Assembly (NCBI GenBank): GCA_024278555.1
Contig: JAJRSX010000176.1
Coordinates: 1-30,476, forward strand
Direction: 5' to 3'
Source: a bacterium
GTDB taxonomy: Bacteria; CG2-30-53-67; CG2-30-70-394
Length of the DNA: 30,476 nucleotides
The translations under genes and the position numbers were made by a program. Positions within the stretch are counted from its first letter, which is position 1. The number at the start of each line of letters is the position of its first letter. The notes under the pieces are model-generated. The model searched no databases. It had not been told where the DNA came from and saw only the letters and a list, made by a program, of their open reading frames with translations. Below are positions 1,646 to 27,661 of this stretch, one piece after another.

Positions 1646-2974
1646 CTAGCGGCTGGAGGCGATGGCCCGCTCCGGGGCCTCGTTCACCAGCCGCGCCTGG
1701 TACTCCGCCGCCAGACGGAGAAAAGGTTGTCGATATGCCTTCTTTACGGGCTCCGCAGGGGGAGACTTGATCGTCATTGGGTTCACCGCCCGCCCATGGA
1801 TGTAAAAACGGTAGTCGAGGTGGGGTCCGGTGGCCCGTCCGGTGGCCCCGACGTAGCCGATGATCTGCCCCTGCTTCACCCGCGCCCCCCGCCGCACCCC
1901 GCGGCCGTAGCGCGACAGGTGGAGGTAGGCGGTCTCGTAGAGGTCGTTGTGGTGGACGCGCACCATCTTCCCCGCCGCCCCCTTGCGCCTCGCCGCCACC
2001 ACCCGGCCGTCACCGACCACCCGCACCGGCGTCCCCACCGGCGCGGCGAGGTCGACCCCGAGGTGCGGCCGGTAGACGTGCAGGATCGGGTGCAACCGGT
2101 GGTGGGTGAAGCGCGAGGAGATGCGGGTGTAGTTCACCGGCGAACGGAGGAACTGCTTGCGCAGCGAGCGGCCCTTGGGGTCGTAGTACTCCTCGTAGCC
2201 GCTCGGGTCCTTGTAGTAGATCGCCGTGTGGTCGTGGCCCTGGACCGTGAGGGTGGCGGCGAGGACCTTGCCGTACTCCACAAACCGGCCGTTGCGCCAC
2301 TTCTCCTGGAAGAGGATGTTGTAGGCGTCGCCCGGGCGGATATCGATGGCGAACTCGATGTCCCAGCCGTAGATCACCGCCAGCTTCATGGGGATCGCGT
2401 CGCCGATGCCGCGCACCCGCAGGGTCTCGAAGATCGAGCCGTCGATGGTCCCGGCGAGGTGGCGGAGGCGGATCTCCCACGGGACGGGGTCGACGCGGGC
2501 GGTGAACTGCTCCCCCTCCAGGCGCGCGACGTAGTCGTGGTCGTCGTCGGTGCGGTAGCGGAACTCCACCGCGCCGGTGGCGGGCTCATGGGTGAGGGTG
2601 TAGGGCTGGCCGGCGGTGAGGTGGCTCAGCTCACGCTTGCCCCGGCCGCGGGAGGCCATCGCCAGGACCCGCGCCGGGGGGATGCCGTGGCCGGTGAGGA
2701 TCGAGTAAAAGGAGTCCGCTCGTCCCACCACGCCCTCCCACCGCTCCTTCCGGGGAGGCGCCGGGGGGGTGGGCGGCTCGTCGATCGGGCCGCCCACGTG
2801 GAGCGGCTCCGCCTCGGGCAGGGCGACCACCGCCACCGCCGGGGTGACGAGGGAGGGGGGGGGCTCGGGGGGGGAGGGGTGGTGCGCCAACCCCATGGCA
2901 AGGGCCGCGACCCCGGCCACCAGGAGTAGCCAGACCCCCTTGCGCCGCCCTCTGCGACCACCATAGCGTCTCAT
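1646..2974 (-). CDS. M23-family murein endopeptidase, membrane-anchored
   Basis: Probable periplasmic peptidoglycan DD-endopeptidase of the MepM/YebA type, 442 residues. There is an N-terminal hydrophobic signal/anchor (about residues 12-30), a Pro-rich linker (about 31-75), a LysM/OapA-like middle region and a C-terminal M23 (LytM) domain. The first zinc motif H304-x3-D308 is intact (HLGVD). The second motif, normally HxH, reads H385-L-D387, so a usual zinc-ligand His is replaced by Asp. I recall HLD variants in some proteobacterial M23 proteins, so activity is not excluded. ATG at 2974 follows GAGGGGAG; an in-frame GTG at 2989 has no such signal. Two G runs (9 and 8 nt on the + strand) fall in codons 34-40. 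It lies 30 nt upstream of the pilT-like gene on the same strand. Confidence 0.85.
   Translation of the reverse strand: MRRYGGRRGRRKGVWLLLVAGVAALAMGLAHHPSPPEPPPSLVTPAVAVVALPEAEPLHVGGPIDEPPTPPAPPRKERWEGVVGRADSFYSILTGHGIPPARVLAMASRGRGKRELSHLTAGQPYTLTHEPATGAVEFRYRTDDDHDYVARLEGEQFTARVDPVPWEIRLRHLAGTIDGSIFETLRVRGIGDAIPMKLAVIYGWDIEFAIDIRPGDAYNILFQEKWRNGRFVEYGKVLAATLTVQGHDHTAIYYKDPSGYEEYYDPKGRSLRKQFLRSPVNYTRISSRFTHHRLHPILHVYRPHLGVDLAAPVGTPVRVVGDGRVVAARRKGAAGKMVRVHHNDLYETAYLHLSRYGRGVRRGARVKQGQIIGYVGATGRATGPHLDYRFYIHGRAVNPMTIKSPPAEPVKKAYRQPFLRLAAEYQARLVNEAPERAIASSR
2855..2874. repeat. Homopolymer G9-CTC-G8 inside the M23 gene
   Basis: On the + strand, nine G at 2855-2863 and eight G at 2867-2874 are separated by CTC. 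On the coding (minus) strand they are C8 and C9 tracts encoding prolines in codons 34-40 of the M23 peptidase. A one-base slip would frameshift the gene just after its signal anchor. Confidence 0.7.
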
Positions 2975-3113
2975 CAACTCCCCTCGCACGCACCGTGTGC
3001 AGCGCCGGCCATCTTACGGACTTCGTCGGCGCTAGGCACGATACCCTCTCCCACCCCGGGCGGCTGGGCCGCGACCGCCGCCCCCGCCCTTCGTCCACCC
3101 CACGAGCCCCACC

Positions 3114-4472
3114 ATGAACAAGGCCGCCCTCTACGCCGCCGAGCACGACTGTCTCTGGCACCCCTTTACCCAGATGCGCGAGTGGATGGAGGGGGAGCCG
3201 ATCATCATCGAGCGGGCCCACGGGGCCACCCTGGTGGACATCGAGGGGCGCGAGTACCTCGACGGCACCGGTGCCCTGTGGTGCAACCTCCACGGCCACC
3301 ACCTCCCGGAGATCGACGATGCGATCCGGGCGCAGCTCGACAAGGTCGCCCACTCGACCCTCCTCGGCCTCGGCTCGGAGGCGGCGGCCCGCTTTGCCGG
3401 GGAGCTGGTGGCGGCGGCGCCGGCGGGACTGACCCGCTGCTTCTACTCCGACTCCGGCTCCACCGCGGTGGAGGTGGCCCTGAAGATCGCCTTCCAGTTC
3501 TGGCAGCAGGAGGCGGGGGGCAAACACCGCGGCCGCACCCGCTTCCTCTGTCTCACCAACGCCTACCACGGGGACACCATCGGCTCGGTGTCGGTGGGGG
3601 GGATCGAGCTCTTCCACAAGATCTTCGGGCCGCTGCTGTTTGACGCCTTCCACGCCCCGTCGCCCTACTGCTACCGCTGCCCGGTGGGGCGGGAGCCGGC
3701 GACCTGCGCCATGGCGTGCTTCGACGACCTCGCCTCCCTGGCGCGGGCCCACCAGGAGGAGATCGCCGCGGTGATCATCGAGCCCCTGATGCAGGGGGCG
3801 GCGGGGATGATCTGCCAGCCGCCGGGGTATCTGCGGCGGGTGCGGGAGCTGTGCGACGAGCTCGACCTGCTGCTCATCTGCGACGAGGTCGCCGTCGGGC
3901 TCGGACGCTGCGGGACGCTCTTGGCCAGCGACCAGGAGGGGGTGGTGCCGGACCTGCTCTGCCTCGCCAAGGGGATCACCGGCGGCACCCTGCCCCTGGC
4001 CGCCACCCTGACCACGGAGCGGATCTTCGACGCCTTCCTCGGTGACTACACCGAGCTCAAGACCTTCTTCCACGGCCACACCTACACCGGCAACGCACTC
4101 GCCTGCGCCGCCGCCTCCGCCAACCTGGCGCTGCTCCTGCGCGACGGCGGCACCCTCGCCGGGGTGGCGGAGCGGGCCGACCACCTGGGCCGCAACCTGG
4201 AGGCGATCGCCGCCCATCCCCACGTGGGCGAGGTGCGGCGTCGCGGCCTGATGGTCGGGGTGGAGGTGGTGGCGGACAAGGCGACGCGCGCCTCGTACCC
4301 GTGGGAGCAGCGGCGCGGCTGGCAGGTATGCCAGGCGGCGATCGCCCGCAGCGTCTACCTCCGCCCCCTGGGCGACGTGGTCGTCCTCATGCCGCCGCTG
4401 ACCATCAGCACGACGGAGATCGACCGCCTCACCAACACCCTCGCCGAGGCCCTGGATACAGCCCTCGGGTAG
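3114..4472 (+). CDS. bioA: Adenosylmethionine-8-amino-7-oxononanoate aminotransferase (biotin synthesis)
   Basis: PLP-dependent class III aminotransferase that converts 8-amino-7-oxononanoate to 7,8-diaminopelargonate with S-adenosylmethionine as amino donor (biotin pathway, cytoplasm). The 452-residue length is normal. The BioA N-terminal signature WHPFTQM is present, then GTGALWCNLHGHHLPEI, the PLP phosphate-binding region FYSDSGSTAVE, the Asp of ICDEVAVGLGR and Schiff-base Lys286 in LAKGITGG. No other bio gene is adjacent. The start has no Shine-Dalgarno; it follows a pyrimidine-rich leader ending GCCCCACC. A small CCGCC-TTT-GGCGG hairpin (4474-4486) follows the stop codon. Confidence 0.95.
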   Translation: MNKAALYAAEHDCLWHPFTQMREWMEGEPIIIERAHGATLVDIEGREYLDGTGALWCNLHGHHLPEIDDAIRAQLDKVAHSTLLGLGSEAAARFAGELVAAAPAGLTRCFYSDSGSTAVEVALKIAFQFWQQEAGGKHRGRTRFLCLTNAYHGDTIGSVSVGGIELFHKIFGPLLFDAFHAPSPYCYRCPVGREPATCAMACFDDLASLARAHQEEIAAVIIEPLMQGAAGMICQPPGYLRRVRELCDELDLLLICDEVAVGLGRCGTLLASDQEGVVPDLLCLAKGITGGTLPLAATLTTERIFDAFLGDYTELKTFFHGHTYTGNALACAAASANLALLLRDGGTLAGVAERADHLGRNLEAIAAHPHVGEVRRRGLMVGVEVVADKATRASYPWEQRRGWQVCQAAIARSVYLRPLGDVVVLMPPLTISTTEIDRLTNTLAEALDTALG

Positions 4473-23731: not shown

Positions 23732-23887
23732 TGCAAATAGGGGACGTTGTTGATCAAATCAACTTTCGGAACCCAGGTCAGCGTCGTCGACCGGCTGGAG
23801 GGTAGTTTGCGGGTGCGCGGTCCCGGTTCAACCGGTACCTCGTCGAAAGCGTAAGTTTATTCAGTCAACAACGTCCCCCACTCTGCA
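23732..23887. mobile_element. MITE-like element with terminal inverted repeats
   Basis: GGGGACGTTGTTGA at 23740-23753 is repeated exactly inverted as TCAACAACGTCCCC at 23865-23878. Similarity continues imperfectly both inward (AA.AACTT.CG, to about 23769) and outward (TGCA shared), giving terminal inverted repeats of about 35 bp around a GC-rich core of about 100 bp. The left end also folds on itself (GTTGAT-CAA-ATCAAC). There is no open frame inside. Its size and structure fit a non-autonomous mobile element; I cannot name its parent transposon. No clear target-site duplication is seen. It lies where the sequence turns from GC-rich to about half GC. The rest of 23634-23942 shows nothing coding. 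Confidence 0.6.
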
Positions 23888-23942
23888 CCCTACGAGAGGT
23901 GCAAAGTATCAACTAACGACCTGCCCAGGAGTACTAGGTTAT

Positions 23943-24341
23943 TCACTGTTCGTTTTGTTCATTGATTTTCTGCATTTCGGCACCTGCGTAAAAGTTGGAT
24001 CCGGAGGGGATATGTACGATCAGGAGCCCCTGAAAAACACGCTCCCACATTCCTCCGGCCTTCATTACAGAGTCGCAAAATCTCTCGAACTTGGGCAGAG
24101 CTACTACTTTTTTGGAGATAAACTATTCAGATCTCTTGAAGTTTCCTCGCTCAACCACGTGCCTAATGCAAAGAGCGCCTTCATCGTTAGGGTAGGCTTC
24201 GACAACATCGCCGAAGCCGACTTCCTCAGCAAACAAGGGTGTGCAGACCACTTGGTATTTCGTCCCGCCTATTGGCGTTGCATCAAGGGGCTCTCCCTCG
24301 TGCATCACTTCGACTAACTCAATGTTTTCAAACGTCGCCAC
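23943..24341 (-). pseudogene. DUF4265-like gene interrupted by an in-frame TAG
   Basis: From GTG 24341 the frame reads 72 codons, meets TAG at 24123-24125, and then stays open for 59 more codons to TGA at 23943-23945. The total of about 132 positions is what I expect of a DUF4265 protein. The first part (YQVVCTPLFAEEVGFGDVVEA, CIRHVVERGN) resembles the N-terminal half of DUF4265. The part after TAG (FERFCDSVMKAGGMWERVFQG, LLIVHIPSG) looks like its C-terminal half. The frame is unchanged, so a single nonsense mutation or a read-through codon explains it. The start lies 14 nt from the attC-like box at 24356-24362. The family call is by eye and moderate. Confidence 0.5.
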
Positions 24342-24355
24342 GTGTCTTTGTCGTC

Positions 24356-24443
24356 GTCTAACGCTTGTAGTACGCGGCGCGCCTCCGGTCGATCGGCACG
24401 ATTGCCCGCGAATTACCGCGTCCGATCGACCACATTGGTAGAC
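24356..24443 (-). repeat. attC-like inverted repeat A
   Basis: Read on the minus strand: GTCTACC ... GTTAGAC, with GTTAGAC fitting the integron R' consensus GTTRRRY. The internal arms GGTCGATCGG (24387-24396) and CCGATCGACC (24422-24431) pair perfectly over 10 bp. Length is 88 bp. It overlaps the 3' end of the PD-(D/E)XK-like gene and stops 14 nt before the start of the DUF4265-like gene, the placement expected of an attC site between cassettes. The arms are asymmetric, with about 18 extra bases containing GGCGCGCC, so this is suggestive only. Confidence 0.35.
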
Positions 24444-24850
24444 CCTAGTCGTGCGTGGACGAACGCAGAAATTAATGACCTCCTAGGGTTAGCAGAACTG
24501 TAGCTCCCTCTAATCTTCCAAGAATCGGTTTCGAGCCAGTTCGTTTTCTCTCCAACGAGGTCCACGAGTTCGTCGTGCTCGATTAGGTACCAAACTCCAC
24601 GAACAGGAAAAGCTAGATAGAGTTCTTTACCAAGATACTTCTTATCGATGTGGACTCGCGCCTTTAGCTGAACCCGCAATGTCTTTTTTCCATCTTTATG
24701 ATACGCGATAAAATCCGCACCTTGCCAGTCATCCGCAAGTTTCATACAGTTATAACCGAAATCAGCGAGTAGGGCGGCGACCTTCTGGAAGTTGTAGATC
24801 TCCTTCTGCTTCGCGTTTAGTTCAGCATACTCGGTCCTCTCGAATTTCAT
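24413..24850 (-). CDS. PD-(D/E)XK-like protein of a conserved hypothetical family
   Basis: Small cytoplasmic protein of 145 residues. The opening MKFERTEYAELNAKQKEIYN, then FQKVAALLADFGYNC and DDWQGADFIAYHKDGKK (D46) followed by LRVQLKAR (Q61-x-K63), is a pattern I recall from a conserved uncharacterised family. The spacing D...QxK is that of PD-(D/E)XK nuclease folds, so DNA or RNA cleavage is possible but unproven. The last 15 or so residues (GSTNVVDRTR) are encoded inside the attC-like repeat A and may be non-homologous. The ATG is 11 nt from attC-like repeat B. GC is clearly lower than in core genes. Confidence 0.65.
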   Translation of the reverse strand: MKFERTEYAELNAKQKEIYNFQKVAALLADFGYNCMKLADDWQGADFIAYHKDGKKTLRVQLKARVHIDKKYLGKELYLAFPVRGVWYLIEHDELVDLVGEKTNWLETDSWKIRGSYSSANPRRSLISAFVHARLGSTNVVDRTR

Positions 24851-24860
24851 CGGAGTCTAG

Positions 24861-24984
24861 GCCTAAAAACGAAAGCTCAGGCGACCGCAAGACGGTGGAA
24901 TTAATTAAAGCTGTGAACCATGGGACATAGCGAAGACGGCAACCATCGTCACGAAGCAGCGTCGCCTGGAATGCCTCGTTAGAG
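24861..24984 (-). repeat. attC-like inverted repeat B
   Basis: On the minus strand it starts CTCTAAC (24984-24978, fitting RYYYAAC except the first base) and ends GTTTTTAGGC (24870-24861), a lengthened version of GTTAGGC. Internal arms CAGGCGAC (24878-24885) and GTCGCCTG (24961-24968) are perfectly complementary. It is 124 bp long, the size of large attC sites such as those of Vibrio. It fills the gap between the 3' end of the HNH-like gene and the start of the next gene. The deviant R' box lowers confidence. Confidence 0.35.
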
Positions 24985-25019
24985 CCCTCGTATATTCTCC
25001 AGATGGATGGATCATGGCC

Positions 25020-25382
25020 TTATGTGAAGCGTCGTTCCTCTTGGATCCTGTAGTCACATTCTCGACATAGTAGACGAGTGTTTTCCCATGTATAACCGGC
25101 CATGGCTTCGAGACGGTCAAGTACAACATTTTTTGCCGGGAGAGACGCACCACATACAGCACATTTATTGTCTTGTCCCGCACGTTTTTCCTCTTTGAGT
25201 TTTCGGCGCTGCATCGGTTTGAGACGTTCGTCGTATGCGAGTTCCTTGTATAGCTTCCGTCGCAGTGCCCAATATAACGCTTCGTCTCCATCCGCAAGAT
25301 CACCAAGGCGTATGCGAACCTCTTCAAGGAGAGGATAAAAAAGTTTCTCCAATTCGCCCTTTGTTAGTTGCCTGTTTGCCAT
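25020..25382 (-). CDS. HNH/zinc-ribbon-like protein of a conserved hypothetical family
   Basis: A 120-residue protein. The N-terminal half is helical and charged (MANRQLTKGELEKLFYPLLE, LRRKLYKELAYDERLKPMQR). The C-terminal half has two CxxC knuckles, C74-x2-C77 and C106-x2-C109, around VVLDRLEAMAGYTWENTRLL, a layout of HNH endonuclease-like zinc fingers in which the usual His is replaced by Asp89. I recall the family as conserved but uncharacterised. A nuclease or nucleic-acid-binding role is inferred. It lies 50 nt downstream of the Cys-rich gene with no attC-like site between them. The same region has an alternative minus-strand frame (24905-25327) that I reject. Confidence 0.68.
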   Translation of the reverse strand: MANRQLTKGELEKLFYPLLEEVRIRLGDLADGDEALYWALRRKLYKELAYDERLKPMQRRKLKEEKRAGQDNKCAVCGASLPAKNVVLDRLEAMAGYTWENTRLLCRECDYRIQEERRFT

Positions 25383-25431
25383 CGTAGAAAATTTTATGGC
25401 ATTCGTTTAATGCGACATAAAGCTTACGCGC

Positions 25432-26142
25432 TTAAAACATAGGGCCAGTACAACGACCGTTGATCCATGCACCATGGCATGTTGGGTGGCACGACTTTTT
25501 TGGAACAATCGTTCCTTGACAGCGACCCATTATAGCGGTGCCAACGCACTCATCAGCGTCGTATACAGTTTGGCCTTGTTCTACACTGGTGTTTTTTCTG
25601 GACCGGTAGAGTGGTGTGGTAGTCCTACGCGACATTGAGGATCGTCGGAACCGATTCATGAAGAAAGCCCGCCAAACGTCACGTCGCGCGTCGCTGTAAT
25701 CGCGCCAAACAACTGTTTCCGATTTGCATGGCGCCCATTCTTGCACTTGTTTATTTGGCGGAAGAGGGAATTTGGCAAGGCAATCACGAAACGCTTGTTG
25801 TTTTTCCGCGAATGCAGGAGGATAAGGTGGGGTAATAAGGGCATCTTCCCCTTGTGTGGTAGCCACACGGAGGGCCAATACGACTGCCTTGTACCGCCGT
25901 CTTTCTCGGCCGCAGTCAGTGGGTTGGCTTTGTGAAAGGCAGGAGTCTAAAGCATTTTTGTATCCGGCTAGCAATTTCTCAATAGGACTCAGTCGTGGGG
26001 TAGTCGCACAGGCAATTCCGGTGACAATCAACGCTGCGGAGAGAGGGATTCGAAGCGAATGACAGACAGTACGAATGGGAGAATGGACCACGGGCATTAA
26101 GCATCGCGCAACAGCAAGATTGAAGGCGTCTTTTTCGTCCAT
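25432..26142 (-). CDS. Exported Cys-rich protein of unknown function
   Basis: Not recognised; 236 residues. A hydrophobic stretch IPLSAALIVTGIACATT (about residues 30-48) looks like a signal peptide with a poor lipobox (GIAC). If translation starts at the internal ATG 26097, the signal peptide has normal length. The middle is helical with scattered Cys (LDSCLSQ, TDCGRERRRYK, RDCLAKF). The last 40 residues contain CVGT, GRCQG, SCHPTCHGAWINGRC, a compact Cys/His-rich knot. ATG 26142 lies 29 nt downstream of attC-like repeat C. GTG 26151 is also possible. It is the first gene of the low-GC cassette-like block. Confidence 0.6.
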   Translation of the reverse strand: MDEKDAFNLAVARCLMPVVHSPIRTVCHSLRIPLSAALIVTGIACATTPRLSPIEKLLAGYKNALDSCLSQSQPTDCGRERRRYKAVVLALRVATTQGEDALITPPYPPAFAEKQQAFRDCLAKFPLPPNKQVQEWAPCKSETVVWRDYSDARRDVWRAFFMNRFRRSSMSRRTTTPLYRSRKNTSVEQGQTVYDADECVGTAIMGRCQGTIVPKKSCHPTCHGAWINGRCTGPMF

Positions 26143-26170
26143 GGTGGTCACTGAGTAACAAAAGGCGATG

Positions 26171-26280
26171 CGCTAACTTTCAATTCAGCCCCAGAAGTGG
26201 GGTATTTGCTCATTCTCAATCGGACGCCCAGCACGCCGCGGCAATCTTATGCCGCGATGAAGTCATTGAAGACGTTGGTG
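26171..26280 (-). repeat. attC-like inverted repeat C
   Basis: Plus-strand CGCTAAC (26171-26177) and GTTGGTG (26274-26280) are imperfectly inverted, with TTCAAT (26179-26184) and ATTGAA (26265-26270) as inner perfect arms; total length 110 bp. On the minus strand the terminal GTTAGCG is near the R' consensus. Two further hairpins lie inside: CCCCA-GAAG-TGGGG (26189-26202) and CGCGGCA-ATCTTA-TGCCGCG (26237-26256). It lies 29 nt upstream of the Cys-rich gene's ATG. The placement matches repeats A and B. Confidence 0.3.
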
Positions 26281-26757
26281 GCCAATAGGCGCCTCTTGTT
26301 GAGTTGGGACTGCTATGCGGCTCTCCATGCATGGTGGTCTCGACGCGGGCGCGTTGGCAGGAGGACAGGAGCATTCACCCTCGCTACCGATCAAGTTTGT
26401 CGAACATAGCCAGCCAAACGACATAGGTCGATTTTGTGCCATCGATCCGGCTGCAACGCACGGGTCACCACCCTGTCGACGCGCCGGTGGCCACCATCCT
26501 CAGTACCACTGGCGATCCGCCATCCCCTCCACGCCCCCCTGCCCATCTCCCCTTTGCGACTTGGCGTCTTCGCGCCTTTGCGTTGAGCGGTTGCCTTCCA
26601 GGCCACCGCCCCCTTCCAAGTGACGCCGTTCCCCCGGCCTCCCTCCCATCTGCGACTCTGCGTTGAAAATCCCACCCGCGCACCGACCCCCCTCCTGCCC
26701 GGTTGCCGCCGATCCAGCCGCCTGCCGCCCCTTCGAGGCCGTTGCACTTCCGCCGAT
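26281..26757. other. Non-coding gap with a dispersed repeat
   Basis: No gene supported on either strand. The left half is of mixed composition; the right half contains the TTTGCG-type repeat at 26549-26604 and a shorter relative near 26649 (CTGCGACTCTGCGTTGA). Confidence 0.5.
26549..26604 (+). repeat. Dispersed TTTGCG-type repeat, copy 2
   Basis: Second copy of the repeat at 314-370, 26 kb away and in the same orientation. It shares CCCCTTTGCG, CTTGGCGTCTTC, CTTTGCG, CGGTTGCCT and a closing GGCC, with about 50 of 57 positions alike allowing one indel. Both copies lie in non-coding DNA next to an accessory or tRNA boundary. Confidence 0.6.
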
Positions 26758-27063
26758 TCAGGTACCGCTGAACCACTCCACGCCGTGGTTGAGAATGTGG
26801 TCCCGCAGCTTCTCGTTCTTGATGGTTGGGTAACGAAGGAGGTCCACGCGCTGGGGGATCGGCAGCGCGTCAAGCTCACTGGCAAACTGCGCCTGGTCGT
26901 CGAGGCTGAGAGTAGGGCCGAAGAGGGCGAGGTCGATGTCGGAGGTAGCGGTGTGGGTGCCCATCGCGCGAGAGCCGAAGAGCACGACCCTCTCGACCCG
27001 CGGATTGGCGGTGAGGATCGCAAGGATCTGCCGCCGGGTCTCTTCCTTTAGTCCGTCGCTCAT
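26758..27063 (-). CDS. mntA: MntA-type nucleotidyltransferase antitoxin
   Basis: Minimal nucleotidyltransferase, 101 residues, with the defining motif G30-S31...D42-x-D44 (FGSRAMGTHTATSDIDLAL) and a later Asp in RVDLLRY. In type VII toxin-antitoxin pairs such proteins inactivate the HEPN partner by adding AMP near its active site. Its start overlaps the stop of the upstream HEPN gene by 4 nt (ATGA), the usual hepT-mntA arrangement. A housekeeping role for the pair, as for HI0073/HI0074 relatives, is not excluded. Confidence 0.88.
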   Translation of the reverse strand: MSDGLKEETRRQILAILTANPRVERVVLFGSRAMGTHTATSDIDLALFGPTLSLDDQAQFASELDALPIPQRVDLLRYPTIKNEKLRDHILNHGVEWFSGT

Positions 27064-27476
27064 CCGTGAGAACGCTTCTCTTGCAGGGTGTCGAAGAGGC
27101 GGTGCAGAGCCGGATAGTAGTGTGTCCTGATGAGGTGCTCCGCTTCCTCGGCAGTCTCCTCGTCGTAGGTGTGCGTCAGGAGATTGCGCTTCTGCAGCGC
27201 CTCAAGCAGGGTCGCCGTGTCGGCTTCGGCAAGGTACTCGGAAACAAACGCCTGGCGGATGACCTCACGCGGCGAGTTGACCGAGAATCCTTCGTAGAAC
27301 AAGAGATCCTTCAGGGTCTTCCAGGCGAGCTCGAAGGTGAACTGGAAAACTTGGACCAAGCCGGCTCGCTCAAGGTCGGAATACGCATCCTTGTCGCAGG
27401 CCGCCTCAAGCTGAAGCAGAGCCTTGCGGAAGTTGTCGTGGCGTTGCTGCCAGCGGACTGGATCGCCATTGCTCAT
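27060..27476 (-). CDS. hepT: HepT-like HEPN toxin (HI0074 family)
   Basis: Helical HEPN-domain protein, 138 residues, of the nucleotidyltransferase-substrate-binding (HI0074) family. The HEPN RNase signature R97-x4-H102 followed by Thr-Tyr-Asp-Glu (RNLLTHTYDE) is intact, as are FQFTFELAWKTLKDLL and SPREVIRQAF typical of the family. It pairs with the MntA-like gene, with a 4-nt overlap. By analogy it cleaves or modifies RNA (tRNA) unless AMPylated. ATG 27476 follows AAGG directly; an in-frame extension to 27542 lacks homology. The 27477-27661 gap shows nothing clear. Confidence 0.86.
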   Translation of the reverse strand: MSNGDPVRWQQRHDNFRKALLQLEAACDKDAYSDLERAGLVQVFQFTFELAWKTLKDLLFYEGFSVNSPREVIRQAFVSEYLAEADTATLLEALQKRNLLTHTYDEETAEEAEHLIRTHYYPALHRLFDTLQEKRSHG

Positions 27477-27661
27477 CCTTGGTTCACCGTAGACATGGCC
27501 CCCCTCCCCGTCAACGAGCACCCTATTGGGTATTTTTCCCATCCCGTATTTTTCCCCTCCCTCCGTGGATTACGTGGCCAATCCCCCTTGCCAGCGATCG
27601 CCCCGGCCCATCGCCGATGACGCCCTACACTCGGCCATCACCCTCTTCGCCTCCCTCCCCT

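Follow-up and report, generated by a model that had tools for sequence, protein, structure and literature searches.

A decayed cluster of attC sites in a little-studied bacterial lineage, probably left by an integron that lost its integrase

CALINs, as the term is used with IntegronFinder, are clusters in which two or more attC sites lie within 4 kb and no integron integrase gene, intI, is present (PMC9024848, PMC9668308), and they have been proposed to be degraded integrons (PMC9024848). Off-target insertion, loss of intI and rearrangement have all been put forward as their origin, and cassettes with two open reading frames are known (PMC8618304). In Xanthomonas, an inactivated, truncated intI is found at one locus while small CALINs lie elsewhere in the chromosome, away from ilvD (PMC12444791).

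We analysed a contig of 30.5 kb (C156, referred to in its entirety as the window) from a 3.06-Mb draft genome assembled in 211 contigs. A block at about 23.9-26.4 kb, situated 4-6 kb inside the contig, has a GC content of 0.47-0.55, compared with about 0.70 in the flanks, and carries four genes, all on the minus strand (Table 1). The low GC content and the single gene orientation had been pointed out in an initial annotation, which proposed an integrase-less array of cassettes with three attC-like repeats, measuring 88, 124 and 110 nt and each preceding the start of a gene. We conclude, with a probability of about 85%, that the block is a decayed CALIN derived from an integron of this lineage that lost its integrase. 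It shares with described CALINs the presence of two attC sites within 4 kb, the second of which is marginal by covariance model, genes on one strand and the absence of an adjacent intI; it differs in having no more than these two sites, each of which has a damaged core box, and in standing at the limit of detection. Like the Xanthomonas clusters, it belongs to a genome with a truncated intI at another locus, though in a different lineage. The kind of element is known (CALIN); the lineage is little studied.

Table 1. Genes and attC sites of the block, in order of position in the window.
Feature	Coordinates	Strand	Description	Parts
DUF4265 gene	23943..24341	-	PF14085; last gene of block	
attC site 1	24356..24443	-	88 nt; profile score 33.4, second in window	R'' GTCTACC (consensus AAC reads ACC), L'' ...TCGATCGGAC, L' CCGATCGACC, bulge ~15-18 nt, R' GCGTTAGAC
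145-aa cassette gene	24413..24850	-	tblastn relatives on alphaproteobacterial plasmids	
attC site 2	24861..24984	-	124 nt; profile score 36.5, top in window	R'' CTCTAAC, L'' TTCCAGGCGAC, L' GGTCGCCTGAG, R' CGTT-ttt-AGGC (3-nt insertion, degenerate)
120-aa CxxC/HNH-like protein gene	25020..25382	-	sub-threshold HNH/zinc-ribbon matches; attC site 2 follows	
239-aa orphan gene	25432..26151	-	no family match	

A strict search of the genome for exact core motifs gave no match. Because a pairing score devised by hand failed to tell attC sites from controls, we turned to a trained profile and ran it alongside controls. The profile, which comprises the R''-L'' and L'-R' arms plus their pairing, was trained on 125 attC sites located beside the integron integrases of other genomes, with the window left out. 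These sites came from the flanks of IntI relatives from the class and from 80 further genome contigs, and reversed and complemented sequence served as the control during their collection. Training sites scored 28.6 at the lowest, and 31.5, 34.0 and 39.5 at the 5th, 10th and 25th percentiles. When both strands of the window were scanned, the two best matches were the 124-nt and the 88-nt repeats, followed by a match at 22.8. Control scans of 2.5 Mb of sequence, reversed or complemented, yielded 3, 1 and 0 matches with scores of at least 28, 30 and 33, respectively, and 1000 dinucleotide shuffles of the block yielded none as high as 33.3. The initial annotation had made its proposal depend on attC scores above background, and this condition did not refute it: the scores were 33.4 and 36.5, a level that no control attained. 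Both sites score in the range of the weaker true attC sites.

The two sites are 0.4 kb apart on the coding strand, each directly after one gene and before the next start. Site 1 follows the 145-aa gene, overlapping its last codons, and ends 14 nt before the DUF4265 gene, whereas site 2, in the spacer from the HNH-like gene to the 145-aa gene, stops 10 nt short of the latter; the short repeat-to-start spacing described initially was thus recovered for these two sites. Arms and spacing conform in both to the R''-L''-(variable)-L'-R' architecture, but each has one core box that deviates from the consensus (RYYYAAC/GTTRRRY), and site 1 has an extra bulge in addition to its altered R'' core.

Two covariance models were also used, R1 and R2, the second built from sites with longer central regions, including an attC from contig C199 of the same genome. 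In the R1 alignment, 86% of the cells were paired, compared with 69% in shuffles and 25-43% when the alignment was slid, and the covariation score was 0.407, compared with 0.124 in shuffles. Site 1 was matched over its full length by R1 (17.3 bits, E 0.045) and R2 (21.8 bits, E 0.0059) and was the only one of the two sites with an E value below 1. Its single-strand fold energy was not better than that of shuffles (z -0.7 and -0.24). Site 2 was aligned end to end but weakly (E 2 with R1 and 1.4 with R2). Its probable identity as an attC is therefore carried by its profile score, its position and its likeness to the C199 attC, with which its two arms share 19 of 24 and 13 of 16 nucleotides, each being the best match within the window to that arm of the C199 attC. 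In the genome-wide covariance searches, in which 150 first-look candidates were scored, the two sites of the window were not among the matches listed. The case shows that a profile trained on many lineages can recover degraded attC sites where covariance scores alone are marginal.

The third repeat (26171..26280, minus strand, 110 nt) was rejected as an attC site: its 5' arm scored -13.5 and its best total was 5.5, far below that of the lowest training site, and neither R1 nor R2 reported it. Two of the three repeats, at the positions initially given, and the gene-attC-gene layout built on them, therefore stand, and the third does not; no more than two attC sites can be recognised in the array, which has no defined left boundary. 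The 110-nt repeat may be a junction between cassette and chromosome. A degenerate candidate after the DUF4265 gene (23911-23954) was also discarded, with an E value of 7 and nearly equal scores on both strands.

We considered the possibility that no integron was involved and that the foreign genes form an ordinary island, the spacer palindromes of which resemble attC sites by chance. The deviant core boxes, the failure of one repeat out of three and the weak covariance score of the 124-nt site would fit such a view. Yet the two best profile matches of the window fall in adjacent spacers, at a level reached by no control, and the same genome contains independent remains of an integron (see below), so that we consider a chance resemblance improbable.

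Several other elements were seen around the block. A short dispersed repeat containing CTTGGCGTCTTCGCGCCTTTGCGTTGAG (26534-26617) recurs elsewhere in the genome in over 30 partial copies, and some copies also occur in a genome of the same genus. At the other end, adjoining the block, two 29-nt arms (GGGGACGTTGTTGA...; 23740-23768 and 23850-23878), 83% complementary and 81 nt apart, form an inverted repeat that resembles a small mobile element, yet is single-copy in this genome. Upstream of the block, a minimal nucleotidyltransferase and its substrate-binding partner (an MNT/HEPN-like pair) are encoded at 26758-27542; no such pair was seen beside LigT in the same-genus genome.

An in-frame TAG at 24123-24125 interrupts the DUF4265 gene, whose PF14085 match extends over profile positions 1-98 by reading through this codon; the gene could be either a cassette gene or a flanking gene. 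The product of the 145-aa gene gave a tblastn match with 51% identity (E 5e-31), and identities to plasmid relatives rose to about 55%; the relative ranked first is flanked by genes for a DNA methyltransferase and a DEAD/DEAH helicase. No plasmid relative was obtained for the HNH-like gene or for the 239-aa gene. With the profile, no attC was found in the spacer between these two genes, so that they may share one cassette, the 239-aa gene being possibly its second open reading frame; alternatively, the latter may lie outside the array. An attC site is thus present after the HNH-like and 145-aa genes and absent after the 239-aa gene. None of the four genes was found in seven other genomes of the phylum, which contained no PF14085 match, and tblastn detected no relatives of the cassette proteins in IntI-flanking loci.

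The initial annotation had suggested looking for intI in the same genome. A fragment of an integron integrase gene was indeed present at the end of contig C121, matching positions 136-315 of 315 of TIGR02249 (259.6 bits). Its N-terminal half is gone, and with it the region of the first catalytic arginine; this truncation lies inside the contig. The terminal 141 nt of C121 recur exactly at the end of contig C73, and the order across the join is the intI fragment, an attI-like sequence (CAGCGTTAGGC), a 145-codon cassette gene, a 72-nt attC (45.5 bits) and a further gene. This layout is that of integrons with intI in the direction of the cassettes (loci L033, L035 and L014), except that only the C-terminal part of intI is retained. 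On C156 itself, no TIGR02249 match was found. The description "integrase-less" therefore holds for the contig and not for the genome. For the two attC sites, the proposal of a chromosomal cassette cluster with no integrase beside it is supported by the broken intI, the attI-like core and the cassette with its strong attC at another locus, and by a lone attC on a third contig. There is no functional intI beside the array, as there would be in a complete integron. The alternative offered at the outset, that the block is the edge of a larger integron, is not upheld: the block lies 4-6 kb inside C156, and the intI-attI-attC locus of this genome spans the junction of two other contigs.

These observations also bear on whether the block could be a piece of a living integron that was split by the assembly, the intact intI being missing from the draft. 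With 211 contigs, and with the intI contig ending at an assembly break, this could be envisaged; however, the 141-nt overlap with C73 closes the break, the N-terminus of the integrase was lost inside the contig rather than at its end, and no second IntI was found in the genome, which was scored 100% complete, the C121 fragment being the only one. We therefore hold a living, split integron to be very improbable.

A third locus, on contig C199, has one lone attC of 130 nt (30.6 bits) adjoining an antitoxin-like gene and a putatively MazF-like frame. This frame (2841-3161 of the C199 locus, minus strand) is interrupted by an in-frame TAA after 66 residues, which is a second sign of decay in the cassette genes of this genome. 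The sequence GGGGTCAGTTCTTTACCTTATA is shared by the surroundings of both attC-bearing loci (at about 3720 in the C73 locus and 3660 in the C199 locus) and is possibly a REP-type element.

Of seven further genomes from the phylum, four have a full-length IntI, and no genome has it at more than one locus. In relatives, attC sites follow downstream of intI and in the same direction. Matches to attC at E <= 0.02 were obtained in five of the seven (G003, G004, G005, G006 and G007; 150 first-look candidates scored), often on contigs without intI. Such contigs were numerous in G003, G004, G005 and G007, and some sites lay deep inside long contigs, for example at 49.5 of 75 kb (C50) and 27 of 51 kb (C84) in G004. 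The dispersed matches suggest that cassettes are scattered across this phylum.

Within the reading of the block as a decayed CALIN, we asked whether the cassettes arrived by IntI-mediated, off-target insertion at a secondary (attG-type) site rather than by break-up of an ancestral array. Off-target insertion is among the routes proposed for CALINs (PMC8618304), and insertion at attG is cited elsewhere (PMC12444791, PMC12901181). It is consistent with the spread of attC sites over several contigs, both in this genome and in its relatives, some of the sites lying far from contig ends, with full-length intI being limited to at most one locus per genome, and with the G^TT present at the putative left edge (26171). 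Against this, many other attC sites are close to contig ends, where the assembly may have split arrays, and the same-genus genome, whose neighbourhood beside LigT differs, yielded no empty site. Neither the same cassettes nor an empty site was found in any of the seven relatives, and there is thus no comparative proof of insertion. Altogether, we view this route as plausible, with a chance that falls a little short of even.

The decayed-CALIN reading implies the following sequence of events, of which we infer the capture, the route to the locus and any residual activity. The IntI of the lineage would have captured foreign genes as cassette circles, and the folded bottom strand of each attC would have recombined with attI, attC or a secondary genomic site, leading to the gene-attC-gene arrangement on one strand. 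The integrase gene then lost its N-terminal half, as observed on C121. The cassettes would have stayed in place and decayed, which may account for the 3-nt insertion in R' of site 2, the altered R'' and bulge of site 1 and the premature stop codon of the DUF4265 gene. Renewed movement of the cassettes would be expected only if IntI were supplied in trans.

These findings document integron decay in a poorly sampled bacterial phylum, with a truncated intI next to a surviving attI-like core, cassette and attC, and with cassettes at other loci that carry stop codons and damaged attC cores. More tentatively, and with the odds somewhat against it, off-target insertion in this candidate phylum may seed cassettes, singly or in small groups, throughout the chromosome, where they would outlive the integrase, so that CALINs would form by attG-type insertion and not by the break-up of arrays.
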